Below, one piece after another: positions 483-23,082 of a stretch of DNA of 24,066 nucleotides; positions within the stretch are counted from its first letter, which is position 1; each line of letters starts with the position of its first letter. The notes under the pieces are model-generated. The model did no database searches. It was not told the DNA's origin and worked only from the letters and a program-made list of their open reading frames with translations. The DNA is from Plicaturopsis crispa FD-325 SS-3 (taxonomy: Eukaryota > Basidiomycota > Agaricomycetes > Amylocorticiales > Amylocorticiaceae). The stretch spans positions 880,118 through 904,183 of the forward strand of contig KN832559.1 in the NCBI GenBank assembly GCA_000827205.1, written 5' to 3'. The position numbers were made by a program, and so were the translations under genes.

Positions 483-545
483 CACCTGAGGCTGTGGAGT
501 AATTGCATCAACTACCGGGATATCCCAGGCCGCATGATGCAATTT
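483..545 (+). repeat. Left terminal inverted repeat of element I
   Basis: It starts CACCTGAGGCTGTGGAGTAA and pairs with 9948-10010. Bases 517-545 of the repeat match perfectly (core GGGATATCCCAGGCCGCATG then ATGCAATTT). The 7-bp duplication GACACAG lies immediately outside. Confidence 0.9.
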
Positions 546-962
546 ATCCCAGCATCGGCCTACACTGCCACTTCACCCGTTTTTGGCCTCCCTGCCCTCT
601 CGGCTGCCTCTCCGGCATCCCGGCTTGCCTTCGGAGTTGAATTTTCTCCTCTGCTCGTCGTCACCTGTGCGCACGGACCCTGGGCGCCCTCGGGCGATCA
701 CGTGACCCTTTCTGGGCATACGAGGCACCCAGCTCTGCTCGAAAAAAAATTAAAAAAAAAAGAATTTTATTTTTTGGGGGGCAGGGGTGGGGGCATACGC
801 AGACCCTTCAGCATATGTACAATACTCTAATCTAGCACATAAAAAGCTGCTGCTGCTGCACTGGCCCCATGGCCATCTGCAGCAGCACCTAAAGAAAACA
901 TACACAGCACCACACTTTCACCCCAGCTGATGGCACGGAGACGGACGTAGTCCGTTGGCCAG
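546..962. other. Outer left arm of element I, non-coding
   Basis: No convincing gene was found. The stretch holds a CGGCTTG-type box near 622 that is shared with the other element ends. An A-rich block at 741-775 mirrors the T-rich block at 9624-9650 of the other arm; both contain an ATT-A-run-ATTTTATT pattern. G runs follow near 776-800 and a CTG/CAG-like run near 847-890. The gypsy element was inserted at the CTGGG that ends this stretch. Confidence 0.6.
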
Positions 963-967
963 CTGGG

Positions 968-1158
968 TGGAAGCCACCATGGGTGGCTACACTTAAGAGG
1001 AAAAGGGAGCAGAGTAAACAGGCCAAAGTTATGGCATTGAACGAGATGGTGGTTCGGGGGAGGGAGCTCGAGGGGAAGTAAATACATGTTCGTGGTCGAG
1101 TATGCGGGGTCAGGGGCAATGTCCGTAAGTAGAAGGTAGTAATCGTAGCGGGATTACA
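968..1158 (-). repeat. 3' LTR of the gypsy element
   Basis: 191 bp, begins TGTAATCCCG and ends GGCTTCCA on the element strand. Its partner is 6459-6649. Duplicated target CTGGG is at 963-967. Confidence 0.95.
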
Positions 1159-1351
1159 CTCCTCCCTGCCAGAAAAAAATAGCGTATGGACGCAGGAAAA
1201 TCGAAATGAAAACAACAAAAAAATCGGAAGGGACCAACAACGCCGGTCGACGGCGACAATGCGATAGCGTAAGTAGCGCGAGCGAGGAGCGTCCGTGAGC
1301 CCGCGAAAAAGCAAAAGAAGAAAAGGGTAAATGATAAAAAACCTCGCAAAC

Positions 1352-4300
1352 TCAGCGAGGATGGCTGGAGAGCCAGATGTCGAGCGCCTCGCAGTCGTCC
1401 AGCTCCCGCCGGGGGAGCCAGAGGTCGGACTCGGGTCCATAGCCGGCCCAACGAACAAGGTATTGGAAACCTCGTCCGCGCCGTCGCTCGTCGATGATCC
1501 GTTCCACCGTCCATTCTACCTCGCCGTCGGCAGTGACCACCGAGCCCGGCTCAGCGTTAGCGCGTGAGGGGAAGAGAACGTCGTCGTTTGCGACGTGTTT
1601 TGACAGCAGCGACGCATGGAACGTGGGCAAAACCGTCGGTGAATTGGGCATGTCCAAGGTATAGACGGACTTAGCTGGGAAAGACACGGTGACCGTGTAC
1701 GGGCCATCGTACCGCGGCATGAACTTGGCTACGCGGCGGTCGCCTTTCTGCATATAGTCGCGGCGGCGGTGAAAGGTGGAGAGCATGACTTTGTCGCCGA
1801 CATTGTACACGACCTCCGAACCTCGGTGCTTGTTCGCCTGCTCCGCTTGTGCGACCTTGGCGGCGAGGAGGTTGTCGCGAGCCTCGGCGACGTCGTCCTG
1901 CAGACGCTGGAGGACCTTCAACGCAGCGGCCTCGTTGTCATCCGCGGGCACCGACGACTCCACGATCGGCGGGATTACGCGGGGCGAGCGTCCAGTTTTC
2001 AACTGAAAACCAGAAAAGCCAGTAGACGAGTTAATGGAGTTCATGATGTCGAAACGCACCCGGGGGAGAGCGCGAACCCAGCCCTGCTGGTTGCGCTCGA
2101 CATGATATCGCAGACACTGGTTGACCGTCTTGTTTGAGCGTTCACTGGAACCGTCAGTTTGCGGGTGGTACGCTGTAGACATTTTCAGTTTTACGCCCGT
2201 CAACTTGGAGAGCGCTCTCCAGAAGCGCGAGACGAAGAGCTTGTCGCGGTCGCTGACGATGTCGAGAGGAAGGCCATTCTCGCAGTACCAGTTATCGAAA
2301 AATAGCGCCGCGAACTTCTCGGCAGAGATGTCGACCGTGGAAGGGACAATACGCAGGTCGGAGCCAAGGCGGTCGGTCATGGTGATGATGGAATCGAAAC
2401 CGGAATCCGGCGTTAACGGGCCAATGAAGTCGATGGCTACTGAGTCGCAGCGACCATCGGGAACAGGGAGCGGATGCAGAGGGCCGGAAGGCTTGGCCGT
2501 TCGTGATTTGTTGCGTTGGCAGTCAGGACAGCTAGGGATGTAAGCGTCCTCGAGATCGGTTCGCATGCGAGGCCAGTAGTAGGCGTCGCGCAACGAGCCG
2601 TACGACTTATCGAAACCAAAGTGCCCGAGAGCGTCGTGAGCCAACCTGAAGAGGTCTTCACGTATGTTAGCATAACGGGGAATTACGAGGCGGTCACCAA
2701 TGTAGAGCAGCCCGTCTTTCTCCGACAGACCAGGCACACTCTCCAGGTTTCCGCGAAGCTTCACGCAGTAAGGGTCGATGGTGTACCCGCGTCGAATTTC
2801 CGCGAGTAGGATGTCGTCCGTCTTTATTGAGAAAGTTGCCGCCACACGGATCGAGGGGACATAGCAGGGGAAAAGCGCAAGGGCGGAAGACACGGAGCGG
2901 GGTGTGAAGACGGGTGGCACCACAGCGGCCACGAAGGAGGAAGGAGAGGACGCGATGGCGGGCGCCAGTTCGTCGTCGTCCATGCGCGATAGCGCGTCGG
3001 CAACGGTGTTGTCGTCGCCTTTGACATAATGGATGTCGAAGTCGTACTGAGCCATATATTCCTGCCAACGGCATTGTCGTCGGGAGAGGTCGGGCTGGCT
3101 GGCGAAGGCTTCGAGGGTCCTGTGATCAGTATAGACCTCAAAACGCGAACCCAAGAGGTCCACGCGCCACTTCTTCAAAGCGCGGATGATGGCGAGCATC
3201 TCTTGCTCGTGCACGGGGTAGTTCTTTTCGGCCGAATTGAGTTGCGTCGAATCGAATGCGACCGGTCGCGCGGTCTCCCAAGTTTCGCCGAAGGAGAGGA
3301 CAGCGCCCGTGCGTCGGTTTGAGGCGTCCGTGGTCACGAATATGCGGTTCTTGCCCGGGGACTGATGGTCGATTGTCGTAAGGCAATCACGACCAAGAAC
3401 CAGGCCCTTGATGGCTTCGAAAGCCGCTTGGTGACAGTCTTCCCATGCGGGGAAATGCTTATCGCAGTCCTTCGTAGTGAGCGGGGTGAGCTGCGACGTA
3501 TACTCTGCTAAGGCAGGGAGGAACGTAGCTATATAACGGACAAGTCCCAAGAATGCGCGAACGTCTTTCGCGGATTCAGGGACTTTCCACTTCATGATGC
3601 GCTCGACTTTGCTTGAGTCAGCCTCGATCCCACGCTCCGAGATGTGGTGACCGAGGAAGTCGAGTTCTACTGTGAAGAGATCAGTCTTCTTCAAAGAGCA
3701 CACGAGATGGGCGGCACGTAGCGCTTCGAGAACAGCAGCCACATTAAGTTCGTGCTCCTCCAGGCTTTGCGACCATATGATGATGTCGTCCAGATATACG
3801 TGACAGATTTTTCCGATGAGTTTCCGCAGTGCGGCGTTTACGCGGCGTTGGTGTGTTGAAGGCGAGTTTCGGAAACCCATGGGCATTACGAGCCACTCGA
3901 AGGCCCCCTGCGGCGTCACTACGGCCGTGTACTGCACGTCGTCGGGGTGCATGCGAGTCTGGAAGAAAGAATTGGTCATATCAAGTTTACCCCAAATCTT
4001 ACCCTTGGCGCAGTCCGCGAGGATATCGTCGATTCGTGGGAGCGGATACGTGTCGACGACCGTATTGGCGTTAATCTTGCGGTAGTCGTTTACCCAACGC
4101 GGGACGGCGTCGCGGTCGGCTTTGGGGACGAGGAAGGCAGGTGAGGCGTACGGGGAATTTGAAGGGCGGATTCGGCCAGCGTCGAGGTGGGACTGAATCA
4201 GCTGGTCCCACGCGTCTTTGTACTTGCGCGGGCACGCATAGCCGCGGCATGCGATCACCTCGAGTGGGTCTTTGAGCTTGACCCGATGGTAGACGTCCGT

Positions 4301-6229
4301 CGGCAAGAGGTCGGTGTGCGGGATCTCACCGAAAACGTCACCGTATTTCTTTTTGAACTTTTCCGTGCGGGCGCGGAGTCGCTCTGTGAACGCTAAGGTT
4401 TCTATGCGTTGGCGCACAGCACCAACATAAGCGTGTTCAGGAGGGGGAGTGCACTCGGAAGTACGTGCCGTGAAATACTTGTATTCGGGCAAGACTTCCT
4501 TGAGCTCTTTCAGGACCGCGCGACGCGCGTTCTTGACGGTCCCAATCTTGGGCAGGTTCTTGCTGGAGCGCGCAGGCTTCGGCGGGCTTGGTGTGGCGGG
4601 CTTGAGCAGGTTGTAGCCCGAAGTCTTGTCGACAACCGAGCGCTCCTTGTAGTCGATCACAATGGAGTTGGCGGCCAAAAACGATTGACCTAAAATAAGC
4701 GGGGCACAAAGTCCGGGACTAACGAGCGCTTTTACAGAGTGCGATGACCAAAGAGAATCAGGAGAAAATAAGCGTATCCGGACCCATTCCTTCAGCTCGA
4801 ACTTCACGGCCTCGCCTGAATCCATCGCTAAACCAACGACAACAGGTTTATGCAATCGGAATCGCCTAAGTCCGAGCTGGTCTGCGATCCCCGGTCTAAT
4901 CAGAACGGCTGTGGAGCCGTCGTCAATCATCGCAGGGGTCGAGACATAGGAGGGCGCATTGGGACCGTCCACGAGACAGTCCCAGAATAAATGAGGCGCA
5001 TGCAGGGAGGGGACGTACCCGGAATCTTCGTCGGACATGGTGGTGTCCGCGTCGCTCTCGATGACGCAAGAGCTCATGCCCACCGCCGCCACGGTGACGT
5101 TGACGGCAGGGACTGTTGGTTTCTTGGGGGGCATGCGAGCGGCAACCGCAAGGGCAGCCGTGAGGTCTGACTTGACGAGGGGCTTGTAGTTCGCCGCGTC
5201 CGGAGCTTGGTTCGGGCACTCTTTGTACGTGTGGCCGGCGTTGAACTTCCGGCACTTGAAACAACCCTTCCCTTCGAGCAGAAGCTTGCGCTCGTCGTCA
5301 GTAAGGCGGGGGAGTCTGTTTGCGAAGTAGCCGGGGACGGCGGTGGTCTGGGTGATGGTGGTGTTGAACGGCCTAGCGCCTCCCGCCGCGACGGGGAAGG
5401 GCTTGAAAGCCTTCTCGCGTTCCTTGATGGTCTTGTCGACGAGGGCGCGGTGGCGTTCTGCGGTGCGGATACGCTGTTCGTCGAGCTTGTATACGGCGCG
5501 GAGGAAATCGGTGAAGTCGTCCGCCGGGATCTCGTGAACGAGGGCGTCCTCGCAGAGGTGGATGAGGTCGGGGTGGCAGTGATTTTCGATGTGGTTGCGC
5601 AGCTCGGGCTTCTTGACGTGCGCGGTCGTGCCGACAATGAGCGCGTTCAACGCTGAGATGCGGATGTACCACTTCTCAGCGGTGTCCGCACCCTGCTTCG
5701 ACGTCATAATCTGCGAGCGCAGGTCGCGCTCCCACCCCGGCGCGAGGACAAGCTTCTGGAGTTTCCCCACGAAGCTGTCCCACGTACCGGCGATGAGTTC
5801 GTCCTTGTCGCCTTGGTACCACTCGTTGACCGTGAGGTCCTTGAGTCCGTACGCGATTGTCAGGATTTTGTCGACGTCTTTCTTGATGTCCTTGATGTAG
5901 AGGAAATGCTCGGCCGCCATGACAAAGTCACGGAGGACGCGAGGGGTTACCTTGCCCTGAGTCAAGATCGGGGCGTTGCGCGGGTTCGCCTGCTCGACGC
6001 GAGCGACTGTCGGGTCGGCTGGTCCTGAGTACATCATGTTTGCGGGAGAGTCGGATTCGGAGTCGGCTGAGGAAGCGGTGGAGGAATTTGAGGGCGACTT
6101 ATGAGAGGCCGCGGGTGAGGACGGGGGGGGAGGCGAGAGATTCCCTAGGCTGAATTCGTCAGGGGATAAAGGGCGTGAGAACTGACCGCGCTGGTTGCGT
6201 CGGATCAACGAAGGAGGCGTGGTGGGCAA
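1352..6229 (-). CDS. Gypsy Gag-Pol polyprotein with C-terminal chromodomain
   Basis: One open frame of 1,625 residues makes the particle protein and enzymes of the element. In order it shows: a Gag region (about 70-330) ending in a zinc knuckle CFKCRKFNAGHTYKEC; an aspartic protease region with a DDGS motif (about 430-540); reverse transcriptase with YLDDIIIWS (about 640-830); RNase H with TTDASN and YTDH (about 920-1030); integrase with an HHCC finger and a DDE core including HPQTDGSSERSN (about 1120-1380); and a chromodomain (about 1565-1620, YLVRWAGYGPESDLWLPRRE). Chromodomains of this family direct integration to modified histones in silent chromatin. Gag and Pol lie in one frame, so no frameshift is needed. 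The start is the first ATG after a leader of about 230 nt from the 5' LTR. Confidence 0.93.
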   Translation of the reverse strand: MPTTPPSLIRRNQRGQFSRPLSPDEFSLGNLSPPPPSSPAASHKSPSNSSTASSADSESDSPANMMYSGPADPTVARVEQANPRNAPILTQGKVTPRVLRDFVMAAEHFLYIKDIKKDVDKILTIAYGLKDLTVNEWYQGDKDELIAGTWDSFVGKLQKLVLAPGWERDLRSQIMTSKQGADTAEKWYIRISALNALIVGTTAHVKKPELRNHIENHCHPDLIHLCEDALVHEIPADDFTDFLRAVYKLDEQRIRTAERHRALVDKTIKEREKAFKPFPVAAGGARPFNTTITQTTAVPGYFANRLPRLTDDERKLLLEGKGCFKCRKFNAGHTYKECPNQAPDAANYKPLVKSDLTAALAVAARMPPKKPTVPAVNVTVAAVGMSSCVIESDADTTMSDEDSGYVPSLHAPHLFWDCLVDGPNAPSYVSTPAMIDDGSTAVLIRPGIADQLGLRRFRLHKPVVVGLAMDSGEAVKFELKEWVRIRLFSPDSLWSSHSVKALVSPGLCAPLILGQSFLAANSIVIDYKERSVVDKTSGYNLLKPATPSPPKPARSSKNLPKIGTVKNARRAVLKELKEVLPEYKYFTARTSECTPPPEHAYVGAVRQRIETLAFTERLRARTEKFKKKYGDVFGEIPHTDLLPTDVYHRVKLKDPLEVIACRGYACPRKYKDAWDQLIQSHLDAGRIRPSNSPYASPAFLVPKADRDAVPRWVNDYRKINANTVVDTYPLPRIDDILADCAKGKIWGKLDMTNSFFQTRMHPDDVQYTAVVTPQGAFEWLVMPMGFRNSPSTHQRRVNAALRKLIGKICHVYLDDIIIWSQSLEEHELNVAAVLEALRAAHLVCSLKKTDLFTVELDFLGHHISERGIEADSSKVERIMKWKVPESAKDVRAFLGLVRYIATFLPALAEYTSQLTPLTTKDCDKHFPAWEDCHQAAFEAIKGLVLGRDCLTTIDHQSPGKNRIFVTTDASNRRTGAVLSFGETWETARPVAFDSTQLNSAEKNYPVHEQEMLAIIRALKKWRVDLLGSRFEVYTDHRTLEAFASQPDLSRRQCRWQEYMAQYDFDIHYVKGDDNTVADALSRMDDDELAPAIASSPSSFVAAVVPPVFTPRSVSSALALFPCYVPSIRVAATFSIKTDDILLAEIRRGYTIDPYCVKLRGNLESVPGLSEKDGLLYIGDRLVIPRYANIREDLFRLAHDALGHFGFDKSYGSLRDAYYWPRMRTDLEDAYIPSCPDCQRNKSRTAKPSGPLHPLPVPDGRCDSVAIDFIGPLTPDSGFDSIITMTDRLGSDLRIVPSTVDISAEKFAALFFDNWYCENGLPLDIVSDRDKLFVSRFWRALSKLTGVKLKMSTAYHPQTDGSSERSNKTVNQCLRYHVERNQQGWVRALPRVRFDIMNSINSSTGFSGFQLKTGRSPRVIPPIVESSVPADDNEAAALKVLQRLQDDVAEARDNLLAAKVAQAEQANKHRGSEVVYNVGDKVMLSTFHRRRDYMQKGDRRVAKFMPRYDGPYTVTVSFPAKSVYTLDMPNSPTVLPTFHASLLSKHVANDDVLFPSRANAEPGSVVTADGEVEWTVERIIDERRRGRGFQYLVRWAGYGPESDLWLPRRELDDCEALDIWLSSHPR

Positions 6230-6458
6230 ACGGGTTGGGTTTTGACTGGGTTAAGAGGGTTTTGACTGGGTTTTTGGAGCGGGAAAAATGTTGGGACTTG
6301 GTATGCGATGATAAAAAACGAGCGGGGAAGTCGATGGGGTCAAAAGGAAAGGCGGCGGGGTGGGCGGGAACGAGATAAGGTTCAAAAGAAGACTCAGCTG
6401 GTTTGGTCTCGATGACGAGACTTCTTGAGAATAGGCTTTGGCGATGTTTAAAAAAAAG

Positions 6459-6649
6459 TGGAAGCCACCATGGGTGGCTACACTTAAGAGGAAAAGGGAG
6501 CAGAGTAAACAGGCCAAAGTTATGGCATTGAACGAGATGGTGGTTCGGGGGAGGGAGCTCGAGGGGAAGTAAATACATGTTCGTGGTCGAGTATGCGGGG
6601 TCAGGGGCAATGTCCGTAAGTAGAAGGTAGTAATCGTAGCGGGATTACA
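6459..6649 (-). repeat. 5' LTR of the gypsy element
   Basis: 191 bp matching 968-1158 base for base as far as I can read. Followed outside by the duplicated target CTGGG at 6650-6654. Confidence 0.95.
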
Positions 6650-6755
6650 CTGGGGGGTGGTGCTGTATATGCAGGGTGGGGGGAGCGAAGCAGTCCCGGG
6701 CACCGCGCATGACATGTACTGTGCACGCAAATACCCGCGACCCACTAACACGAAG

Positions 6756-7112
6756 GTGCGGGAGGCATGCACGAGGGCGCGCAAGGGTGTGGGAGGCGTG
6801 CATGTGCGCGAGGGTGTCGCAGGCGTGCGCGAAGGTGCCCGAGGCGTGCGCGAGGGTGCGGGAGGCACGCGCGTGGGCGCGGGAGGCATGCGCGAGGGCG
6901 CGGGAGGGTTTGCGAAGCGTGCGCGAGGGTGTGGGAGGCGTGCGCAGGGCGTGCGCGAAGGTGTGGGAGGCGTGCGCAGGGCGTGCGCGAAGGTGCGCGG
7001 GGCGTGCGCGAGGGTACGGGAGGCCTGCGCAAAGGTGCGCAAGGCGTGCGCAAAGGTGGGCCGGGCGTGCACAAAGGTGTGCGGGGCGTGCGCGAGGGCG
7101 TGGAGGGCGTGG
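6756..7112. repeat. 21-bp tandem repeat array in the left arm of element I
   Basis: About 17 units of a degenerate 21-bp motif close to GTGCGGGAGGCGTGCGCGAG plus G, G-rich on the plus strand. A period of seven codons keeps several frames open, so the long Ala/Arg/Pro/Thr frames on both strands here are by-products of the repeat. Element II has a different G-rich array (28-bp unit, 19143-19254) in the equivalent part of its left arm. Confidence 0.85.
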
Positions 7113-7192
7113 TACCCAGGAGGATTGTGTAACTACGAGAACAAATATGTCAGCTGAATAGTACCGGAAAATGTACAATAGAAGACGAAAAT

Positions 7193-7254
7193 TGCCCGTG
7201 CCAGCGCGTTCAGCTGTCCAGGGTCGGACAATTCATACTGACGCGGCACGGGCA
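7193..7254. repeat. Short hairpin, 62 bp
   Basis: TGCCCGTGCCAGCGCGTTCAG at one side pairs with CTGACGCGGCACGGGCA at the other, with a short bulge and a loop of about 24 nt. It could be a tiny inverted-repeat insertion or an RNA hairpin; no clear target duplication was identified. Confidence 0.55.
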
Positions 7255-7460
7255 GGGAGGGGGGAAATGTGAAAAGGGCAGGCGGGCTTACCTGGTGGTC
7301 TACGGCCCATGCTGCGGCACCTCCCAGCTGTTCTGCTATGCGACAGAGCCTGCACCGGCTCTTGTTGTGTGGGACTGCGTGTGTGGGGGCATACGGGCCT
7401 GCACACGCGGCTATGGCGGTCGTTACGTTGCGAATGGGAGGGGACGGAGCGTGACGTGGC
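7255..7460. other. Left arm of element I between hairpin and central stem
   Basis: GC-rich sequence with no recognised gene. It continues the arm inward to the acceptor of the outward-facing intron-like module. Confidence 0.5.
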
Positions 7461-7517
7461 CTGCAAAAGATGTGTTAGCACGCAAACTAGCGGTCAAAAA
7501 AAGAAAAAACAACTTAC
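7461..7517 (-). other. Outward-facing intron-like module, left arm of element I
   Basis: Read on the minus strand: donor GTAAGTTG, branch-like GTGCTAACAC, acceptor TCTTTTGCAG followed by GCCACG, 57 nt in all. It mirrors the module at 8563-8619 in the other arm, which has the same length and the same signals. This suggests RNA transcribed outward from the centre is spliced. Confidence 0.6.
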
Positions 7518-8562
7518 AATTGAAAGAAGGACCACAGAGAACACCCCCTGCAACGTTGCAGGGGGACCGGTCGGCGTGTGGGCGAGCGAGGGCGTAGAGG
7601 AGGTGGGAGACGACGAGTACAAGCAAAAGTTGAACATCGACGCGTTGAGCGGAATTCAAACTCCGCCGGCTTTGGCCGCGCACGGACCCGCCGACCTCAA
7701 AACACGTTCCCCGTCCTTCAAAAGCGCGTATTATAATAAGATAAATTACAGGACTCTTATTTGGTACATAAGGATCCCCCTTGTAAATGATGAATTTTTT
7801 TGCGTGGTAGGAAACGAGTCAGTCAATGAAACGAGCCAATTTCGCGACAATTTCGTGACATTGTGCACACTTTCAGCGCACGCACGTCCACCCCCTCATT
7901 TTTACGCTCTGAAAAAATCATATTCGTGTTCTACGGGTAGGAAAACCCCCAGAACGAGTCTCCCTCGTGTATCCGTTCCGTGTGCCCAACGCAGGAGCTC
8001 AAACCGACCTGAAAGCACTAGGATCGAGCATTTCGGAATGTCCGAAATGCTTGTTTCTGGTGCTTCAGACCTCGATTTCGGCTCCTGCACCGGGCACACT
8101 CAACGGAAAACCAAGGGAGACTCGTTCTGGGGGTTTTCTGACCCTCTGAACATGAATATGATTTTTTCAAAGCAAAAAAACAAAGGGGCGGATGTGTGTG
8201 CACTGAAAGTACGCACAATGCCGCGAAATTGTTGCGAAATCAGCTCGTTCATTTTATTCAATCACACAAAGTGCACGAAAAAATTTAATACTTTTATACC
8301 GTGCTCTACAGTAATGGACGATTGTCCCCCAAATTAAATAGATTTAAATACGAACATCTGAGCGTTGAGGAAAAGACGTCGGCGTCGTCGGACGCCTGCG
8401 CGGACAACTCCGGCGGAGTTTGAAATCAAAACCAACGCGTCGTCGCTGTTGGTTTTGCTTTTGCTCGTTGTTGTCGTCGTCCTCCGCGTCGATCCACGCA
8501 ACGACGACAACCCACCCCCTGCAACTTTGCATGGGGGTGCTGCCTTCCTGCTTTTATCATTT

Positions 8563-8619
8563 GTAAGTCTTTTTTTCTCTTTTTAACCGTTGTATAATGT
8601 GCTAACGAGCTTTTTGCAG
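8563..8619 (+). other. Outward-facing intron-like module, right arm of element I
   Basis: Donor GTAAGTCTTT, a T-rich middle, branch-like GTGCTAACGAG, acceptor CTTTTTGCAG followed by GCCACC; 57 nt. All three splice signals are near ideal for a fungal intron. Its mirror copy is 7461-7517 on the minus strand. Confidence 0.65.
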
Positions 8620-9947
8620 GCCACCTCCCACACCTTCTCGCCAGCACCACCACGCCAGCGCACGCAGGGCCCAGCCAACACCATCCACGTCGACACCGCC
8701 GTGCTCGCCCCGTGCAGGAGCACGCGTATACCACGAACCCCGCCCGGCGGTGTAAGCACCAGCGCCCACCGCCGTGCCACCCTCGCGACCACGCGAATCA
8801 CCCCCATTCAACGCATCCCCCGCCCCATTCCACGCAGGTCGCCCCCCGCTTCCCGTGGTCCTCGCTACCCAGATGAGCGCTCCCCTCTCCCCCGCCAACG
8901 CCTACCTTTCCATATCACGCACCCGCGCTCTGCGCCACACCACCACTCCCCGTTCTCCGCAACCACACGCCGCCCGCGCACGGCCGTCTCCCGACGCCGC
9001 TGTGCGTCCTCAGGCCCACCCCAACGCCTCGCATATCAAGATGACGCCCGCGCAGAGCAGGCGCACTCGGCGGGCTCCCGGTGCGCCCGCATCGAGTCGG
9101 CGCCAGCGCACGCCTGCGCGCCGTGCGCGGCAGCACCCCGGCACCCTCCTCCATCCGTGGCGTCGTGCCAGTGACACGCGCCGTTCACGAAACGACCCGC
9201 GAGCGGCGCCCGTACGCGGGCACCGCAGACGACAGCGCACCGACGGGTGCCGCCGCTCACAGGCCCCCGCGCAGTTGAGCAGGTACAGGGCGGCGAGGGG
9301 GCCAGGTCCACTGAGGAGGAGAAGGACCAGCACGAAGCAAAGGGGCGGGAGGTGTGGCGGGGGTGCGACGGGCGCACGGTGCAGCACGAAGGCGGTCGCG
9401 ACAGGTACAGGGAGCGGCGCGCGACGGCAACGGCAACGGCGAGCGACGGCGTGAGCGACGACAGCGCCAGCGACGACAGCGCCAGCGACGACAGCGGCTG
9501 GCGCTGTCGCCGTTCACGCTGCCTCCGCCTAGCCGTTTGTCTTTGACGTCCCCCGCACCTCCGTACCCACTGTCGCGTCCGCCGTCGTGTTTGTGCCACC
9601 GGGACATCACTCAGTAGTCTACACAATAAAATCTTTTTTTCTAATTTCTATGAGCTTCTGTGCCAGCCTACCACCCCCAGTGTAAGGAGTGATGGAAAAA
9701 ATCCGAAAAAAATCCGAAAAAAATCGGAATATATTCGTGAGGCACGAACATCTAAGACGACGATCTCGAACATCACGTGAAATGGACCCGGGAGTCGAGA
9801 CCACCCCCGAAAACGCACCTGAAGTGAGTATAGGGGCTGAAAGACCCGATTGAGTGGGGAGTGCGAAATTTTCGAAATCCGAAAGGTGCCAGCAAGTGCC
9901 GGACAAGCCGCGCCGACAGGGGCGAGCTATATATGGTATCCCGATGA
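8620..9947. other. Outer right arm of element I, non-coding
   Basis: C-rich on the plus strand up to about 9600, the counterpart of the G-rich left arm. Long frames here are rich in Pro/Arg/Ala/Thr and look compositional, not genic. It contains a 15-bp repeat (9454-9498), the T-rich block 9624-9650 that mirrors the left arm, three copies of an ATCCGAAAAAA unit (about 9694-9729), and the subterminal box TGCCGGACAAGCCG (about 9897-9910), which is also present in element II near 22854-22867. Confidence 0.6.
9454..9498. repeat. 15-bp tandem repeat, three units
   Basis: Three nearly identical copies of AGCGACGACAGCGCC in the right arm of element I. Confidence 0.85.
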
Positions 9948-10010
9948 AAATTGCATCATGCGGCCTGGGATATCCCACACTTTGATGTAATTTCCCTACA
10001 GCCATGCCTG
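9948..10010 (-). repeat. Right terminal inverted repeat of element I
   Basis: Reverse complement begins CAGGCATGGCTGTAGGGAAA and pairs with 483-545. It is followed by the duplicated target GACACAG (10011-10017). Confidence 0.9.
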
Positions 10011-11129: not shown

Positions 11130-11197
11130 GCTCGCAGCGCTAGAAGTTTGTCTATTTCTAGGGAGGATGTTGGGATTACGGGCAGATTGAGGGGGAG

Positions 11198-13099: not shown

Positions 13100-13107
13100 G
13101 TGATCAG

Positions 13108-13119
13108 TAGGGCTGTCCA
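13108..13119 (+). repeat. hAT left terminal inverted repeat
   Basis: TAGGGCTGTCCA, next to the duplication GTGATCAG. Confidence 0.95.
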
Positions 13120-13249
13120 ATTATGAATAAATACTTTTTTGAGCCGTAATCTAATGTATTGTAGCAGAAGTAAGCGTACGAACAGGTCTAACTATTGCTA
13201 TGAAAATCTTAGTGTAATCTAACCATATGATAGTCATAAGTAATCGAAA

Positions 13250-16200
13250 TTATTGGTGAATGGAAACGTTCTCGAGATAATGGAGTCCTTCCCCAAAGCC
13301 CTTTTTGAGCCATTCCTTCGTGAGTATCGTCTTCGAGGCCGACTCGACACCCATTGAGCTCCGAGAATCTGTCAAGGTATGCTTGCTGCTCGAAAACAGG
13401 CGCTCGACAGATACACTGACGCCCGGAATAGCGAGTATATCCCTGGCGATCCTGGATAGAACAGGAAAATCACTCGCGTGTTTCTGCGTTAGCAAGTATT
13501 GCAATCAGTAACAATCGGGAAATTTGTTGGATAGTACTTGCCTTCCACCACGGGAGGGCTTTGTCATTGGAGCAGGCGTATGTGCCGCTGAGGTACACTT
13601 CAAGCTCGCTTGAGCTATTTGCTTGGCGCGTAGTCGGCTTGTTGGAACGGATGGCCTGTCGAAAGATTGAACCGGATACGGAGACCGGTTTTGTCGATGA
13701 GGAAGCGCCTTGCAATGCGGATGAGGGATCCGACTCCGGCGACTCGGAGCTTGGCTTCGAGTATTCGTTATACAGCTTCTCGAGCAGAACACGAGCCCGC
13801 TTGGGGATCGCAGCGTCCCAGTTGTCCGTGTTTTCGAATAATTCAATGCGAATCGAGGGGTGGAGGACTAAGCGGTAATGTAAATAGATCGCCAACAATA
13901 CAGACATGGGAGAATATTATCGTACCGGCACCTAGCAGAGCATAATCTCCCACCAAAGCCTTGTCCAGGTGCTTGATTAACTTTGCGTGCCCAGCACGGA
14001 AGGCCTGCTGCAAACCGTAAGGGTCAGGTTCCATGTCGAGGTCCGAGATGCAAGCGTTGAGGCGGTTTTCGATCAATTTATAAAGTGGTAAGATTTTGCA
14101 GATCGTCGGTTCGTCGGTCTTTGAGACGTTGAGTGTCGCGTCGTTGAAGACCTAAAGGCACTCCATATCTAATGAGTATCTGGAGGAGTAGAGTAGTTAC
14201 ACAATGCGCACGTACAGATAATGCCTTTGAAATCTTTTCGAGCATGTCCCAATCATTTGGACTCAAATACCATTTCTTCTTCCGTCGTGCTGCTACACGT
14301 CGCTTGCGCCCAGTAAGATGCTGGTCAATCTGGTCGATCCATTGATTTACTGCCTACAATATGTAAGCATCAGCGTGAGCACGATTGAAATAAGATGGAA
14401 AAACGAAAGAGCTTACGGGCTTTAGCAATATGCCACGATTGATCTCCGCGTACGTTGTGTTCCAGCGGATCGCCATGCTACGGATGGGCACCAGATGTCT
14501 ATTCACCTTGTCACACAGCCGCCTTATCAACCGGCGCATGCGCTTGCGGCGAACTTCCGACCGTAAAATGTCAACCACTACCGCATGCAGCTAGATATTC
14601 ATTTTGTCCATCAGCGTGCCGCTTGTAGCTGGGCATTGAAAGCTCACCTTCTCGACGATATTGAGGTCCTTTTTTGACCGGCGAGTGCCGCTGCGAGCCC
14701 CAGTTGCACTGCTCTCGTCTATCGTACTATCCTCCCAGTCATCATCCTCGTCACAACTGATACCGGAGGAGTCGTCGTCATGGCCTGAGTCCTCATCAGA
14801 ATTATGAGCTACCTGCCCCGCAGCCTCCGAAGCGGCTTCCTTCGACATGACTTCCATCTCTTCTACAACTGCCGGATCCTGCTCAGGGACATATGCGATA
14901 GGGTACTGGCGCGCGCCTTCATATTGATCCTCAATGTCAGGGTCCGGTGCGATCCCAAGCTTACATAGAATCGTTCTACGAAAGCCATAAGCAGAATGAG
15001 ATTCACCAAAATTATAGAACGTACTGGGCAACAATGTGGTATACGTGCGAGGCACATCCAATGCCAAGATTGAGAGGGTCAATGTAGAGGTCTCGGGCTT
15101 TACGGATCCGTTTACAGATAGCGCGGTTTTGGACACCGTTGCTTCCGGTGTTGTCCGTCGTGTTTGTAACTAAAACAAAATCAAATGTGAATCATCAATT
15201 CTGATACCGCAGTGATTATGACACGAGCGTACGTACTAAGCTTGCCCTCAATCTTGCGTCGCCGCAGCGCATTGAATACGAGCTTTCCGGACGCAGCTCC
15301 GGAATGATCACCGTCGATGGGTAAGAGCTCCAGAGCACTTTCAACGAGTTCCCACTCGTCGTTGATGTGAGACTGTACGACACCAGCAAATGCGTAGACA
15401 GAATTTTTACTTGTCCAGAGATCCGTCGCTATCGCAATTTTAGATGAATTTCCCTGTCAAGATAGTTGAGTAGTGAGCCTATCACTTGAACGGCAATGTG
15501 CGTCGGACGCAGTGCAGGCAATAGACGCACCACTAGCATTTCCGTAACACGTTCATCGACTTGGTCGTACAGCCGATCGAGGTCTTGACGCACGATCTGA
15601 TGTCCTGGGATGGTGAAATTGCGCGGAAGAATGTATTTGAAACACTTATTCATGCCGCTTTTTTCGCCTAGGGAGTACGGTAAATCATCCTCAATCAAGC
15701 CCTGAACGAAATGCTCGCGGAAGCCCTTCTTCGTGATTTGTTTGGCTGGGTTCTCGATGCCGCGTGCAACAAAATTAGCCATGAACTTATGCTGCGAGTT
15801 GGCGGGAAGGCGCGCGGGGTCATCGACGTTGATAGCTGTAGCGGACGTTCCGCCGCGACCAGATTCCGCATCGTTTAGACGTGCCTGCCACGCCTCAAAA
15901 GTATGGCTGGACGGTATTTTCGGACACTTATCGAGATGCGTGATGAAATTGCTGGAAGCGGGGAGTTTGAGAGTTTCTTCGGGGTATTTGGTACATCCCG
16001 CAGTGCGCGGGGATGTTCGGAACGTCCTGAATTACATTTCATGTGAGATAACTGCACGGAACCCGAAGAATGTACTGGTACTTACGGGCAGAAATTGCAC
16101 AACCACTTCCAGATTGGTTTCCCTTGCGTATTTTTCGCAGCGGTCGGCACAAAGTTCTCGAATGCCCAGCGTGTTTTCTTAGGCTGGCGTCCCGGCCGCG

Positions 16201-17450
16201 CGACCACAGTCTCAACTCCTCCGTCTGAGTCGTCTCCTGATGTACCACTGTCGGGAACACGCGCGGCCTTCTGACGTAACATAGAAGGTCAGTCGGGAGT
16301 CATAACGGCACATTTCGCAGTCCATGACTACCTTTGATGCTGCATTCCGGCGTGTTTTGGGCGTTGTCTTCTTCTTCTTAGCCTTCTAGATGATCGGCCC
16401 CTCGTAAAATACACATGTGATGAGAACAAATGATTCACTTACCGGACGCTGCGATGCAGACTTATTTGAGACATTTTTTGACGAGCCCGAGCCACGGATA
16501 GGACCGTCAACAAGCATCCTGTCGTCCTCATCGTCCTCGGAGTCTGAGCCTGACTGCAACGCAGGCAATTCGGGCTCGTCAGGCGCAAATTCGCTGTCAC
16601 TGCCATCTTTATTTGTTTGAGTTACTCGATCGTGATAAATATCCTGTGGTCTGACTAACCTCTTGCACGCTTTTCTCCACGGGTGGCATGCTCACTCGCT
16701 CGCCCGCCCTCGGCTTGATCAGCCTCGCTCAGCGTAGATTGTTCGGCTGGTGTTGTAGTCGGATTTGTAATTGTAAGAGCTGGGGAGAGTGTCGTCTGCG
16801 TTGAACTCTTGCGGGCCGTCACTGGCGGTGCTTTCGAGGCGGTAGTTGTCGTGCGCTTCGGTTTTTGGGCAGCTGCTAACGACGGGGCTGCATCTGTCCG
16901 AGTTGATGGTGCCTTCCTCGGAGCTGCCGGGCGCTTGGACTTTGCAGTCGAAATTGACGCGTAGAAACTTGCGGGTGACTGCGGTAGGTTGGAAACACTG
17001 GTGAAAAGCAAATTTTGTCAGAACTTAATGCACGAGAAAGTAACCAGTCCCAAAAATCGAGACGTACACTTCACTGATTAGATTTCGGAGACCTTTAACG
17101 CGCTCCGATAACAGAAATAAGCCATTATTGGCTTCCATTCCCTGCAGCTTTGAAAAATGTGACAAGAATGTGTATAGCATAGCTAGCCCATACTTTCCAT
17201 TGAGGACCAATTTCTTTCGCTCCTCCAGTGGTACCTGGAAGGTACGCTCCCAAGCACGGTTGAAGGTGAAGAACGGACCTTCTTCGGGATCTATGACTAG
17301 GCCGTCTATCCCAAAGTTGGAAGCAATCGGACCATCGCTGCTGCCGTTGGGAATCGACGACGGTAGGGCCTTGATAGAGTCCTTGAGTTGACGCAGCGAA
17401 AGGAGGAGCGCCTGACGCTCATTACTGTTGTCGCCCGATGAGGCTGACAT
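13250..17450 (-). CDS. hAT transposase, BED finger and dimerisation domain, many exons
   Basis: The enzyme cuts and re-inserts the hAT element. Exons I can place on the minus strand: 17450-17068, 16997-16660, 16606-16443, 16385-16332, 16268-16086, 16026 to about 15530, about 15452-15237, 15169 to about 15022, further exons to 13542, and the last 13483-13250. The total is roughly 1,100 residues. After a low-complexity N-terminal part comes a BED finger built across an intron (WKWLCNFCP then NFITHLDKC). The catalytic core has IAIATDLWTSKNSVYAF (first Asp), TDNTGSNGVQN (second Asp) and CASHVYH. Then RWNTTYAEI, YLSGTYACSN...PWWK and the hAT dimerisation domain FPVLSRIARDILAIPGVSVS with VERLFSS. 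The intron before the last exon appears to be GC-AG. The boundary near 15452-15530 is uncertain. I see no disabling change. Confidence 0.85.
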
Positions 17451-17760
17451 TGCCCACGGTGAAGGACGGCGCAGGGGCGTGTGAGGTACTCGAGCGACTC
17501 GAAGATTGTTTGACGCTTACATAAACTGGCAAGCCACAAGCACAAGCAGAGCCGCATGCTCGCGACGCTCGAAAACGCACAGTATACCTGGCTGGACATA
17601 ATCAATAATATGATTAACTACAAGGCCTGTAATCTATTCTAACCGTAGTGAAATCTAATCATATCACTATGTATTATGAGCCTACGGATTACGGGCCTTC
17701 CTGTATGTATTCGTAGTAATCAAATATAATCATGATTATAGTCGGATTTAATTTTAATTC

Positions 17761-17772
17761 TGGACAGCCCTA
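17761..17772 (-). repeat. hAT right terminal inverted repeat
   Basis: TGGACAGCCCTA, a perfect inverse of the left end over 12 bp. Confidence 0.95.
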
Positions 17773-18044
17773 GTGATCAGTTGGGTTTCGTACATATTTG
17801 CCTCTTTCTCTAGAGCAACAGCCTCTGTCGATGTTATCTTGGAGTTTTGCCAGAACTTGAGGACAACATCCGCATTGTCAGCACCAAGTTTCGCCCGGAA
17901 GATCGTGGAATTTCTTCCCCTGTGCAGCCTAGTGATGCCGTGAACTCTGACCCTATCGGAAGTCTTCCTAGACCCAAGGCGCACCCTTTGCAGGGCGAAG
18001 TCGGAAAGGACAGGCGGAGGTTGTACATCGGCTCGTAGTGGGCT
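17773..18044 (-). pseudogene. Gene B, middle of exon 1 (N-lobe)
   Basis: Encodes residues 19 to about 109, including lysine 81 and the alpha-C-like segment. It lies between element II and the hAT element. On the minus strand it ends in CTGATCAC, the hAT target duplication. Confidence 0.85.
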
Positions 18045-18051
18045 GCCGATG

Positions 18052-18124
18052 CAGCCATTGCTGTGAAATAATTGTAAAGGATCAGGGAATATGCCATTGG
18101 ACTTGATGCAAAGGATCCCAAGTG
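18052..18124 (+). repeat. Left terminal inverted repeat of element II
   Basis: Begins CAGCCATTGCTGTGAAATAA; pairs without gaps with 22905-22977. Confidence 0.85.
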
Positions 18125-19582
18125 ACCAAATATTTGCAATACCGATCCGATCTGCCCGCGCGGCTCAGCGCGGCTTGCTGTCGGACTTTGAAATTCTCGA
18201 AACCGCGTTTTCTGGCTTCCGAAAACAGCTATACAGCCCCTAAAGCTGCCTGGACTTTGCCTGCGCGCCTTCGGGCATGTCTCGGGCATCCACTCTTGTA
18301 TAAATAGCCCCTAATATTGACTTCCACAATTCCGCACCTCCTCGGGCTGGTCTCGGACATATAATTAGCCCCTGAATTGACTTCATAATTTTCGAGCTCG
18401 TGTTTTAATCACTGTATATGCTGACTTTGCCTTTCTGTGCTGAGTACTTTTTATCCCCAGCTTACAGGGCCTGGTTGTGGCATGTAAATTAAAGACATGA
18501 ATTCAATTTCTATCTACTACACAAAGCAGATACGTAAAACATCAATTATAGCCCGAGCATCAGGGTGCGAGAGCGGCAGCGACGAGTACGCGGGGCGTAC
18601 ACGATGCCAGCAGTGCAGACGGCCGTGGGCGCGGAGTGCGCTGGCACGGCCGTCCGTACGCGTGCCAGCGTCTCCTCACCCTACATGCCGCCTGCCTCGC
18701 TGGAATCCCGCCGAGCCGTCCCCCTTCTCCTACGACGATGGCAGCGACGCCGACCTCGGCGGTCCACATGGGGGTGAGCGCGCTTATTCAGCGTCGACGC
18801 GGCACCTGCGTCGATGTGCAGGTGCGCGTGTTGCGACGGGACTTGGGGGCGGCACGCTCCGGTGAACGGGCCACGGTGATTAGCGTGCGCCCGGGCGTTC
18901 GTACACTCTACAGCGCGGTGCGCTCTCCGGGTACGGACGCGCTGTCGTCCAGGGCGGTGCTGCACGGCTTGTCGATCGCAGCATAAGCATACGCGTGGGA
19001 GCCCTTGCTTGATGCTGTCGTCGACGACGGGTGGCGCGGATGCCGGGGGCGCAGACGCGGAAATGTGGGGTGGGCGCGTGAACGCAAGGCCGCGTGTGGC
19101 GCGGATGCCGAAGGTGTTGACGCGAGTGGTGTATTCACGGGAGGGCGTGGGCGTGGGCTGGGAAACGAGAGGGCGTGGGCATGGGCTGGGAAACGGCAGG
19201 GCGTGGGTGGGGGCTGGGAAACGGCAGAGCGTGGGCGTGAGCTGGGAAACGCGAGGGCGTGGGCTGGTTGGCGCGAGGGTGAGTACATGGGCGAGGGCGC
19301 GAGGCGGAGGGCATGGGCGGGGGTGGGAGACTGAGGGAGGGAGCGAGGGCGCGGGCGTGCTAACGCGAGGAGGCGGCGAGCGTGACGCCTCCGCTGCCGT
19401 CGAGAGGGCGGTTGGATGCGGCGGTGCGCTGGCGCTGAGGTGGGCTGGCTCGAGCCGGCGCCCGGCGTACCCTGCATTTCCTGCTGACTTCCTCCCCTCC
19501 TCTCAGGCCCTTCTCTGCGGCGTCGTCATCTCCTGCGGTGTCGTGGGTTGGCGTGCGCGAGTGGCAGGGTGCGTGGGTTGCG
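18125..19582. other. Outer left arm of element II, non-coding
   Basis: The first part (to about 18560) is A/T-richer. It holds the subterminal CGGCTTGCTGTCGGACTTTG box (18171-18190) and a degenerate tandem duplication of roughly 70 bp (about 18260-18400) with CTCGGGC and TAGCCCCT in each unit. From 18560 on it is GC-rich with G-rich arrays. Frames on both strands are Ala/Arg/Gly/Pro-rich and read as composition effects. No gene was recognised. Confidence 0.6.
19143..19254. repeat. 28-bp tandem repeat, four units plus a partial fifth
   Basis: The unit is close to GGGCGTGGGCGTGGGCTGGG followed by AAACGAGA. It sits in the G-rich left arm, as the 21-bp array does in element I. Confidence 0.85.
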
Positions 19583-19637
19583 CTACAAAAAGGTCGTTAG
19601 AGCTGTAATAGCGGATGAAAAAAGGATAAAAACTTAC
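19583..19637 (-). other. Outward-facing intron-like module, left arm of element II
   Basis: On the minus strand: donor GTAAGTTTTT, branch-like GCTCTAACGAC, acceptor CCTTTTTGTAG followed by CGCAACCC; 55 nt. It is followed inward by a short imperfect GC palindrome (about 19662-19686), like that of element I. Confidence 0.6.
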
Positions 19638-20640
19638 AATGCAGAGACGAAGAGTAACAAGCACCCTCTGCGAAGTTGCAGAGAGTGGGCGTCGTCATGC
19701 TGCGCAGCGGCAGCGACGTCGTGAGCGACGACGACGAGCCACGAAAACGAACATGCGCGACGATTTGTCCATTTCAAACTCCGCCGGCGTCGCCCGAATG
19801 GGCGGGTTTGCACTGTCGAAGCCTTTCTTCAAACCTCCCAGAGCGCTCTTTCGTCAGGAAAAAAATATAAAGGTGCTCGTAGATGTCACTAGGTGGTGTA
19901 TAAAAAGTTTCAAATTTTTTTACTGGATAGAAACGAGTCAGTAAATGAAAAGATCCCAAAAGTATGGGTTCAGTGTAGATCCTGGCTCGAATTCGCATCC
20001 CTAGTGTCCCCCTCTTGTTTTTATGCTTCAAAAAAATTAGATTCGTGTTTGGGGGACGTGATTACATAGTACACAAATTTACTGTGAAGATCTATGGTGT
20101 GTGCCCAGTACAGGAGCTGAAATCGCGCTCAAGAGTACCAAGATCGAGCATTTCGGACGATCCGAAATGCTCGATCTTGGTACTCTTGAGTGCAATTCTA
20201 GCCTCAGAGATGGGCACATCCCTGGGATCTTTACAGTAAATTGGGGGACCATGCATTCACGTCCCCCAAACACGAATCTAATTTTTTTGAAGCCTGGAAA
20301 CAAGAGGGGGACACTAGGATCGCGAATTCGACGCAGGTAAAGCTTGTTTTGCGATGATTTGCGATCTTTTGGGATTGTTTCACGTCGCGCTCATTCTACA
20401 CTCAACGAAAAAAATTGAAAATTTCTGTATCACATTTATAGGTAGAACACAGTACGTTTCTCATTTTTCCTTGCTGAAAAACACTCGCATGAGTGGTGAG
20501 GAAAGAAAGTCGGCGTCGTCGGCGCTAGCGCCACAGCGCGGCAAAGTCCGAAAACGTTCCCACGGTTCGTTTTCGAGCCTCGTCGTCGTCGTTGCCTAGT
20601 CTCCCGTAGTCAGACTCAAATTCCGAACAAAAAATGACAG
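19583..20640. repeat. Central long palindrome of element II
   Basis: Centred on GCATTTCGGA / TCCGAAATGC at 20159. The inner stem (about 19985-20157 with 20161-20335) is very well matched, including the 12-bp TTAGATTCGTGT run on both sides. Pairing continues outward to about 19715-19750 with 20555-20600 (ACGACGACGAG and CGAAAACGAAC). The left half, from intron-like acceptor to centre, is 575 nt, against 577 and 579 nt in element I. Confidence 0.88.
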
Positions 20641-20662
20641 TCGATTTTTTTTTCTACATTAG

Positions 20663-21201
20663 AGTCTGATTCAGTTGGTAGGGTCCGAACCGGACCTGAA
20701 ATCATGGTCACGTGCTTTCGCCCGATCGGGAATCGCGGCAGTTTGCTCTCGATGTTCTTTCCACTTTGCACCCTGTTACACATGTCTCACTCTCAATTTG
20801 TTCATTGTTTCCATCCTACAAGCACAATATATGCATTCTTCATGCTCGGTAGTTGCGGCGTGTTGCCAAAATCTTGCGCACACGATAAATCTCGCATCGA
20901 AGCTACCTCAGTTGTAAGTAGCACTCGAGAATCAGCATGTATAGCTTGCTTTTTTGTACAAAAACATGGATATCTACTTATCCGATAGATGCGTGTGCAT
21001 TTGCAAGCAGTTACAAGCAAATAGTGAGCGGGAATGTTGATATCCAGTGGTCCGCGTCTCGTTTCTGAGGCGCGTCGACAGCCCCGAGGACGAGCACTCT
21101 GGCCTTTTACATAAGCAAATTTCCTTATTCATCGAAAAAGCATGACCGCACATGACGAGAAATTTCAGGTCCGGTTCGGACCCTACCAACTGACTCAGAC
21201 T
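20663..21201. mobile_element. Small inverted-repeat transposon (MITE-like) inside element II
   Basis: About 539 bp with 40-bp terminal inverted repeats (20663-20702, 21162-21201) that match at 39 of 40 positions. The ends read AGTCTGATTCAGTTGGTAGG and, inverted, AGTCTGAGTCAGTTGGTAGG. No transposase frame is present. Flanks suggest a short duplication, AG or TAG, but its exact length is unclear, so the superfamily is open (Tc1/mariner-like and PIF-like are candidates). Near-perfect ends point to a fairly recent insertion. Confidence 0.85.
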
Positions 21202-22904
21202 AGTCGTTGCCTACCCTACCTTGCTCTCAGCATCCCATCCTCTTGCAGCCTCGCAGCCCTGCTCCTCCCTCACCGCAAGCTCCCGTCGCCGACGCTCTAT
21301 ACCGGCTCCATCACCTCGAAGGTCGGCTGCTTGCCTTAGTCCCCCGCCATCTTTTTCTGGCAGTCGTGGTCTGCCACGTCGCCGTCGAGCGCGTGCGCAT
21401 AGGTTGCGGGTAAGTCTTTGCTTTTTATTTATTCCTCCCCCATTCTTCCCCAAAGCCGCGCGTCAGTATGATAGCTCGGACCTTGGGCAGCAGAACGCGT
21501 GCGGCCTTGGCCATTTCACTCACCATTCATGTTTGCTTCACCCCAAAGAGCTCACTGAGATGTCCGTTGTTGTTTTTACAGGTGCAGCTCCCCATCCCCC
21601 TCCTCATCCGCGTCCCAGCCCCCACCCCTCGCTCTGATTCCCATGCCGCCTGCGATTATGCAGGGTCATGCACGGTGTCGACCTGCCGATACGCCCGAAT
21701 CTAGGCGGAGCGGATGCGCGCAAGTGTGCGGCCGACCCGGAGACGGGTAGCAGGCAGGGCAGGGCCGTACCTTTCGTGCAACATCATGACGCGCGGGCGG
21801 CGTGGGCTATGATCCACGGGCGGGGCGGGACGATGCAGTATAAATTGGATGCTGCATGCTCCTGCTACGAGCGTTGGGCTCGTGCACTGCGTGCTTCCCA
21901 GCGCACGGTAGGTTTGTTAATTTTCACCGTTCGCTTTTGCTTGTTACTGATAATCTTTCATTTAGAGACGCTTTTGAGTCACTCCTGGCCTCACGCGCCA
22001 TGCCCGAGGGCCGCACAGCCTACGTATGCCGCGACGTGCGTATGCACCCCACCTCGACAGTGTGCACCCAAATCCACCCATCTCGGCTCTGCATTAGCCG
22101 CACGCGCTACGCTATGCACAATACCCGTGTGGTCTACGGATGCGCGCCTGTGACCACGCACCAGCCCCTACCCTTCCTGCATTCAACCTTGTCAGGGTGT
22201 CCGACGTCTGCCTCCCGCGCTGAGCGCCCAGCGCCCACTTCTTGTCGATCCCCTGCAGGTGTGCTCGTGCATACATACCTCGCCCCGACTGCCTGCACAT
22301 GGGTGCGGGCAGGCACCACCACCTTGTCTGCAGCACTGCGATGTGTTCCCGCCTGCCTGCGCACCATGGAGCACACATGCCACGACGCACCTGCTTGCTC
22401 GCCAGCAGTGTGCTGCATGCGTTTGCCGTGTTAATACTGCAATCGGCGCGCGCGCAGTCTCCCCATCCCCCCAACCGTAACCCAACCCGGATGTACTCCC
22501 GGTCTCCGTGGTTGCCACCGGGGGTGTGTGGAAGTGCATGCGCCTGCCCTGCATGCGCCAGCCTCGCACCCGCCGCGCAGTGCGTGCATGTGCGGGTTTT
22601 TTTTCTTGTTGCAGATATCCATGTCGTAGACGTGGTACACTGCCCAAATACGATAATTTTTTCACCATTTTTTTTGAGTGGGAATGCGAGCGCGGCCCCA
22701 GGTCGAGCAAATTGAAAATTGAGTAAAAATAGATTTGTGAGCCTCGAGGCGTGATGACGACGAGCGCAGAGGGATGCCGAAGTGGCCCAAGCCATCCGAG
22801 GCAGCAGTGGACATTAGCAAAGCAATGTTCAATGTCCGAAGGCTAGCGCGAGATGCCGGACAAGCCGAAATACCCAAAAGGTGAGTAGGTGGCAGTGCAG
22901 CAGA
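21202..22904. other. Outer right arm of element II, non-coding
   Basis: C-rich on the plus strand, the counterpart of the G-rich left arm. It is the most diverged of the four arms. It contains intron-like stretches 21420-21581 (GTAAGTCTTT to TTTTTACAG) and 21908-21965 (GTAGGT, TACTGAT, CATTTAG). An A/T-rich block near 22650-22680 resembles the A-rich blocks of element I. The box TGCCGGACAAGCCG lies about 22854-22867. Open frames look compositional and no known protein is recognised. Confidence 0.55.
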
Positions 22905-22977
22905 CACTCGGGTTCCATTGCATAAAGTCCACTGGAATATTCCCATAACTTTTGTAAAGTGGCTACAGCATGAGGTG
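22905..22977 (-). repeat. Right terminal inverted repeat of element II
   Basis: Reverse complement begins CACCTCATGCTGTAGCCACT; pairs with 18052-18124 and is followed by GCCGATG. Confidence 0.85.
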
Positions 22978-23031: not shown

Positions 23032-23082
23032 GCTGGCAGAATTATGATCTTGGGGTGTTGTCGTAACCAGCAACGATAGCTG

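Follow-up and report, generated by a model that had tools for sequence, protein, structure and literature searches.

Among described DNA transposons, the Kyakuja (KDZ) elements of Agaricomycotina have 7-bp target site duplications (TSDs) and 5'-CA..TG-3' termini, and the accessible part of the same study reports two L. bicolor families without terminal inverted repeats (TIRs) (Kojima 2025, PMC12730594). That part also describes hAT7, hAT elements with 7-bp TSDs in rust fungi (Puccinia). According to the accessible text of other sources, KDZ1-3 of Cryptococcus neoformans have TIRs of 139-241 bp, TSDs of 8 bp or 4-8 bp, and an encoded KDZ transposase (PMC12810828), the A-locus transposon of Agaricus bisporus is 1441 bp long with 93-bp TIRs, a 9-bp TSD, and loops (PMC10051438), and Galileo, a Foldback-like member of the P superfamily in Drosophila, has long terminal inverted repeats and 7-bp TSDs with the consensus GTAGTAC (PMC2775673). 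Here, we compare these systems with two large insertions, elements I and II, in the agaricomycete Plicaturopsis crispa FD-325 SS-3 (contig KN832559.1, positions 880,118 to 904,183; this whole stretch of 24,066 nt is hereafter referred to as the window). Coordinates are window positions, with a strand named where one was assigned.

The reading that we favour, with moderate confidence, is that I and II are old, diverged, large non-autonomous DNA transposons of one lineage that were moved in trans and have a conserved centre consisting of a divergent promoter, leader, and intron. Element I (483-10010) is 3841 bp long once a nested Gypsy element is removed, and element II (18052-22977) is about 4.39 kb long without a small nested transposon (4387 bp as cut for analysis, with 20663-21201 removed; the nested transposon was later placed at 20663-21200, which is one base shorter). 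The word 'family' as applied to I and II refers to these two copies (n = 2).

Boundaries, tips, and coding capacity

Both elements are genuine insertions, one in a Copia element and one in a host gene. Each is flanked by a perfect 7-bp TSD: GACACAG for element I (left copy 476-482, right copy 10011-10017) and GCCGATG for element II (18045-18051 and 22978-22984). When the flanks were joined with one TSD copy, the reading frame was restored in both cases. Joining the flanks of I yielded an open, in-frame Copia reverse transcriptase open reading frame (ORF; ..RIVAGGHRQKFGVNYTETF.., ..RIVAGGHRQKFGVNYTETFSSGVKMSSIRVVLAYAAQHNWDIHQA..), and joining those of II yielded a host-gene ORF (MHPSAIILDLHDIYSVIGSPLRADVQPP.. 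/ MHPSAIILDLHDIYSVIGSPLRADVQPPPVLSDFALQRVRLG..) that matches a paralogous ORF in the window (11539-12159; MHPSAIILDLRDINFVSANPFGRPPDVQPPSVPSDFVLRRVQLV..). The TSD length of 7 bp is therefore supported by the agreement of the restored frames, in addition to the repeat itself.

The four ends of the two elements, i.e., the left tip of I (483-548, plus strand; CACCTGAGGCTGT..GGGATATCCC..ATGCAA), the right tip of I (9945-10010, minus strand), the left tip of II (18052-18117, plus strand), and the right tip of II (22912-22977, minus strand), align without gaps over 66 columns. They have the pattern CA..GCTGT..GGGATATNCC..ATGCAA in common: the terminal dinucleotide is CA, GCTGT occupies columns 9-13, and a box resembling GGGATAT.CC and the motif ATGCAA are also shared, so that the elements start with CA and end with TG. 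All six tip pairs scored above all 1000 shuffles (first 90 nt compared), and the left and right tips are 74% alike in I and 67% alike in II over the 66 columns, values that none of 1000 shuffles reached. These results bear out the preliminary description, which had proposed two related, unusually large, TIR-bounded mobile elements with conserved terminal repeats: the exact TSDs, the homologous tips, and the central palindrome described below are common to both.

Inverted tips together with exact 7-bp TSDs in both elements are features of cut-and-paste TIR (class II) transposons. Miniature inverted-repeat transposable elements are under about 0.8 kb in size, and I (3841 bp) and II (4387 bp) lie well above this limit. 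The start consensus of hAT termini is YARNG; the four ends of I and II begin with CACCT, CAGGC, CAGCC, and CACCT, none of which has G at position 5. With the Gypsy element set aside, 22 stop-to-stop ORFs with a length of 150 aa or more lie wholly or partly in the elements. Of these, 20 were scanned, against Pfam only (for the ORF at 6251-7132, just the non-Gypsy part); the other two were 889-1515, which is largely Gypsy sequence, and 9986-11143, which consists for the most part of Copia flank and N. None of the 20 reached the Pfam cut-off (three sub-threshold matches, E 0.07 to 0.11), in agreement with the apparent lack of coding capacity noted before. Given that no DDE transposase gene was found in the 20 of 22 ORFs scanned, we file I and II, at a rank above superfamily, as non-autonomous cut-and-paste-like TIR transposons, Kyakuja-type mobilisation being our leading guess.

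The central palindrome and its edges

The centre of element I is an imperfect palindrome (7453-8627, centre about 8040; 68% over 1205 columns, BLAST E 1e-103), and that of II contains a well-paired core (19981-20337, centre about 20159; 82% over 357 columns). Self-reverse-complement scores were 512 for I and 408 for II, compared to shuffle maxima of 46 and 44 (0/60 shuffles each), and the three comparable half-arms have centre similarities of 428, 266, and 268, compared to block-shuffle means of 30, 20, and 14. The centres are AT-richer, with a GC content of 0.40-0.46 in the innermost 300 nt of each half. In element coordinates, the palindrome centre lies at 1871 in I (midpoint 1920) and at 2108 in II (midpoint 2194), and the arm lengths without nested insertions (1869 + 1969 nt in I, 2106 + 2278 nt in II) reproduce the earlier figures according to which both centres fall near the element middle.

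The outer edges of this ~1.16-kb centre coincide with intron-like 3' splice sites in three of the four half-arms, all facing outward. Read outward, the signals comprise GTAAGT, a pyrimidine tract, CTAAC, and then TTTTGCAG or TTTTTGTAG; the intron-like stretches are located at 7461-7517 in the left half-arm of I (minus strand; GTAAGT..GCTAAC..TTTTGCAG), at 8563-8619 in its right half-arm (plus strand), and at 19583-19637 in the left half-arm of II (minus strand; GTAAGT..TCTAAC..TTTTTGTAG). The interval 7461-8619, which had been proposed earlier as a probe, thus has outward-facing predicted introns as its exact limits on both sides, a feature that was overlooked at that time. The strict intron pattern occurs four times in the window, including these three sites. 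Shuffles of both elements contained a mean of 0.12 strict sites, and at least three were found in 1 of 1000.

Similarity falls off at these edges. Between the right arm of I and the left arm of II, the central BLAST match that reaches furthest outward stops at the acceptors (8619/19583). The self-match of I extends 8 nt past them, and in the first 60 nt after the acceptor, ungapped similarity is 48%, 33%, and 38%. After in-silico splicing, the junction is spanned by an ORF of 80 aa or more with an ATG start in one of the three half-arms (115 aa, left half of I), and as this holds for only one, a non-coding leader appears likelier than a protein. The ends should be all that a non-autonomous DNA transposon requires. 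The 1.16-kb centre with its splice signals was kept in two lineages in which most arm similarity was lost, which suggests internal selection beyond transposase binding at the tips.

To compare the four half-arms, we aligned them over 690 columns, of which 109 with a gap in any row were left out and 315 were neither invariant nor split two-to-two. Within the inner 200 columns, 38 two-to-two splits unite the two arms of the same element, the other two groupings occur 0 and 2 times, and in columns 200-610 the corresponding counts are 29, 15, and 6. Equal-thirds probabilities are 3e-16 and 3e-4, respectively, on the assumption that columns are independent. In the final 80 columns, in which the alignment of the right half-arm of II is poor, there are 4 concerted splits, and 0 and 4 others. 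The splits in the inner stem show that the arms of each stem changed together since I and II separated. Mismatches in the inner 190 columns of I comprise 10 that are G.U-compatible on the plus strand, 19 on the minus strand, and 13 transversions; the corresponding numbers in II are 9, 7, and 17. There is no consistent one-strand excess of G.U-compatible mismatches in both elements (a weak test, n = 2). This result tips the balance slightly away from selection on an RNA hairpin and towards arm-to-arm conversion, repair templated by the hairpin, or repeated re-formation as the process that would keep the stem arms alike.

Outside the tips and the centre, the preliminary description is not supported. 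It regarded the whole element as one graded inverted repeat, but the paired arms of one element match weakly at best. For inverted local matches between the two arms of I, the top score was 31, which was reached in 22 of 200 dinucleotide shuffles; the top match in II scored 33, sits in C-rich repeats, and depends on the shuffle used (0/200 dinucleotide shuffles, 7/200 block shuffles). The end-to-end comparison of the left arm of I with the right arm of II (66, compared to -78, sd [standard deviation] 17) is the sole pair well clear of 30-nt block shuffles, followed by I-right/II-left (247 and 172, sd 20) and the repeat-rich I-left/II-left pair (79 and 28, sd 19). When whole arms were dinucleotide-shuffled, four of the six arm pairs scored above all 60 shuffles, and shared regional composition accounts for part of this. 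I-left and II-right also have a 41-nt block in common (80%; 7205-7245 on the minus strand and 21459-21499), located 216 nt and 211 nt beyond the splice acceptor, respectively, and their tips stay similar for about 150 nt (63%). Because the left arm of I matches the right arm of II and not its own partner, the arms are mostly distinct sequences, II is oriented opposite to I, and the element has polarity.

Read outward, the arms are C-skewed (whole-arm GC skew -0.09 to -0.13), albeit unevenly, with positive values in several outer bins. The left arm of I contains G-rich 21-bp tandem repeats (6751-7119) that are C-rich when read outward. A second imperfect palindrome lies in the right arm of I (9385-9589; 70% over 212 columns) with 15-bp tandem repeats.

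Nested insertions and surroundings

The Gypsy retrotransposon nested in element I (968-6649, minus strand), which is not part of the element, has long terminal repeats (LTRs) at 968-1158 and 6459-6649 and a pol ORF at 1352-6250. Its LTR edges and a 5-bp TSD (CTGGG) were read from the sequence. The LTRs are identical across a 194-nt repeat, and the long, intact ORF contains reverse transcriptase, RNase H, integrase zinc-binding, and chromo domains (Pfam); this insertion looks young. In element II, a small transposon with 40-bp inverted ends (98% alike) and probably a 3-bp TSD (TAG) is located at 20663-21200 and interrupts the right half-arm close to the expected intron donor; an acceptor-like end is present in this half-arm at 21240-21248.

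A hAT element (13108-17772) with the TIR TAGGGCTGTCC and a TSD (GTGATCAG) read as 8 bp lies between I and II and appears to be inserted in the same host gene as element II. It contains a hAT dimerisation domain (Pfam E 6e-15), and its coding stretches are spread across several ORFs. We rejected it as the source of the ends of I and II based on its TAGGGCTGTCC ends and its 8-bp TSD, although the repeat context allows other lengths. Outside the elements, no part of the window matched element sequence at a BLAST E of 1 or better. Related gene copies occupy 11539-13108 (MHPSAIILDL..., minus strand), with kin stretches at 17781-18044 and 22985-23040 and repeated stretches at 11620-11776 and 12952-13108; the ORF at 11539-12159 had no Pfam match. 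An assembly gap (686 N, 10444-11129) is located just to the right of element I.

Scans of viral contigs returned no match to the tip motif of I or to the core palindrome. In a scan of bacterial genomes, the core palindrome GAGCATTTCGGA..TCCGAAATGCT was found at two Beijerinckia mobilis loci (L001 994-1021 and L002 7394-7421). L001 has no BLAST similarity to the window, and that of L002 is limited to 33 bp, which we take as chance.

Alternative readings and comparison with known systems

Under the favoured reading, a trans-supplied transposase (Kyakuja/KDZ-like or hAT7-like) would bind the ~66-bp tips and cut and paste the whole element. The centre would act as a divergent promoter with a mirrored leader exon and intron, from which two spliced transcripts, non-coding or formerly coding, may run towards the tips. 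The palindrome arms would be kept alike through arm-to-arm conversion or hairpin repair, and the arms past the introns would drift fast and fill with C-rich repeats. We regard as rather unlikely a stronger version, in which I and II are large transposons without protein genes and selection acts on a palindrome that homogenises itself. This payload would comprise a mirrored promoter with a leader exon and an intron, would give rise to two divergent spliced non-coding RNAs, and would be kept through transposition while the remainder drifts.

Several observations weigh against the favoured reading. The three predicted introns are homologous, so that the conservative count is a single ancestral intron that was retained in three places, and not three separate events, and the excess of invariant columns in the signals (12/14) over the rest of the intron (21/43) reaches a P of only 0.015. 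The fourth half-arm (right arm of II), where the small transposon is located, has no clean donor. Similarity between I and II persists beyond the edge or crosses arms, in the 41-nt block, in a repeat-rich stretch (6871-7007/19229-19360), and in a 30-nt stretch (9433-9462/19704-19732). Translated in one frame, the 41-nt block yields similar peptides (RQYELSDPGQLNA / RQYDSSDLGQQNA), leaving room for lost coding sequence. The window contains no transposase for I and II, and their tips match no family exactly. With respect to the distinctness of the arms, the end-to-end arm score of I (87) exceeds all 200 block shuffles (mean 41, sd 20) and that of II (6) exceeds 195 of 200 (mean -34, sd 20). These excesses of about 2 sd each are no more than that of the non-corresponding pair I-right/II-right (-11, compared to -52, sd 19; 4/200), and there may be a faint or very old mirror relation between the arms.

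I and II could instead derive from autonomous transposons, each with a divergent gene pair, that decayed or were internally rearranged. A shared bidirectional promoter and first introns would then make up the centre, and the arms would be left over from coding exons. We give this explanation a minor, albeit appreciable, chance. It would account for the outward predicted introns, the 115-aa junction-spanning ORF in the left half of I, and the similar peptides of the 41-nt block, and TET-bearing Kyakuja of Agaricomycotina hold more than one gene in the accessible part of the report (PMC12730594). However, the Pfam scan left all 20 ORFs below the cut-off, two of the three half-arms have no junction-crossing ORF of 80 aa or more with an ATG start, the exon-1 alignment contains single-base gaps, and the intact TSDs would speak against prolonged decay in place. 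The palindrome could also have been kept for a working hairpin, in the form of either a long RNA that supplies small-RNA silencing or an extruded DNA cruciform recognised by the transposase. The predicted folds (-250.6 kcal/mol for the II core, z -26 against 100 shuffles; -520.9 kcal/mol for the I centre, a single value without shuffles) and the 38 paired changes that kept the stem are consistent with this idea, but we consider it distinctly improbable, given the lack of a consistent one-strand preference among G.U-compatible mismatches (the weak test mentioned above) and the consideration that a promoter within the stem would leave part of the hairpin untranscribed. Four Rfam microRNA matches, including three on the II stem, were rejected because all lie below gathering scores.

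It is very unlikely that the central palindrome arose as an independent foldback or MITE-like insertion that entered the ancestor of I and II once and was carried along. Palindrome similarity does end at corresponding places in I and II, as such a passenger would predict, but these limits are predicted intron acceptors, no duplication was seen at the printed edges (by eye, no formal search), and both centres lie near the element midpoint. Palindromes are a common kind of assembly artefact (inverted chimeras); the probability of such an origin is negligible for arms that are only 68-83% alike, with the same design in two diverged elements.

The likeness to Kyakuja consists of the 7-bp TSD and the CA..TG termini found in both I and II. 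In contrast, the Kyakuja in the accessible part of that report lack TIRs (I and II have 66-bp imperfect TIRs, 74% and 67%) and carry transposase and TET/JBP genes, with no central palindrome mentioned there (PMC12730594). The hAT7 elements of the same source also have 7-bp TSDs, whereas no transposase was found in I and II (20 of 22 ORFs, Pfam). KDZ1-3 are likewise large basidiomycete DNA transposons with TIRs, but in the accessible text their TIRs are longer, their TSD lengths are different, and they encode their own KDZ transposase (PMC12810828). Abr1-like non-autonomous hAT elements and the A-locus transposon are, like I and II, mushroom TIR elements without intact transposase genes; they are shorter, and the accessible text mentions no centred palindrome with introns (PMC10051438). 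Galileo resembles I and II in its 7-bp TSDs, its richness in inverted repeats, and a first description without coding capacity, but its inverted repeats are long and terminal in the accessible account (PMC2775673), whereas I and II have a central palindrome and short tips. Long terminal inverted repeats forming arms, as in Foldback/Galileo, are not seen in I and II, with no significant local arm match in I and an end-to-end excess of about 2 sd.

Among the matches listed in the open-access literature, with Repbase and most subscription papers outside this scope, we found no element of this build, and the accessible parts of PMC9674265, PMC3411680, and PMC7641404 contain nothing closer. As a kind, the large non-autonomous TIR element is known already. 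What would set I and II apart, judged from their sequences and among the open-access matches listed, is an apparently undescribed build that combines short tips, mostly distinct arms, and a central self-homogenising palindrome with predicted outward introns at its limits, and within this build they provide a natural example of concerted evolution between the arms of a palindrome that is part of a mobile element.

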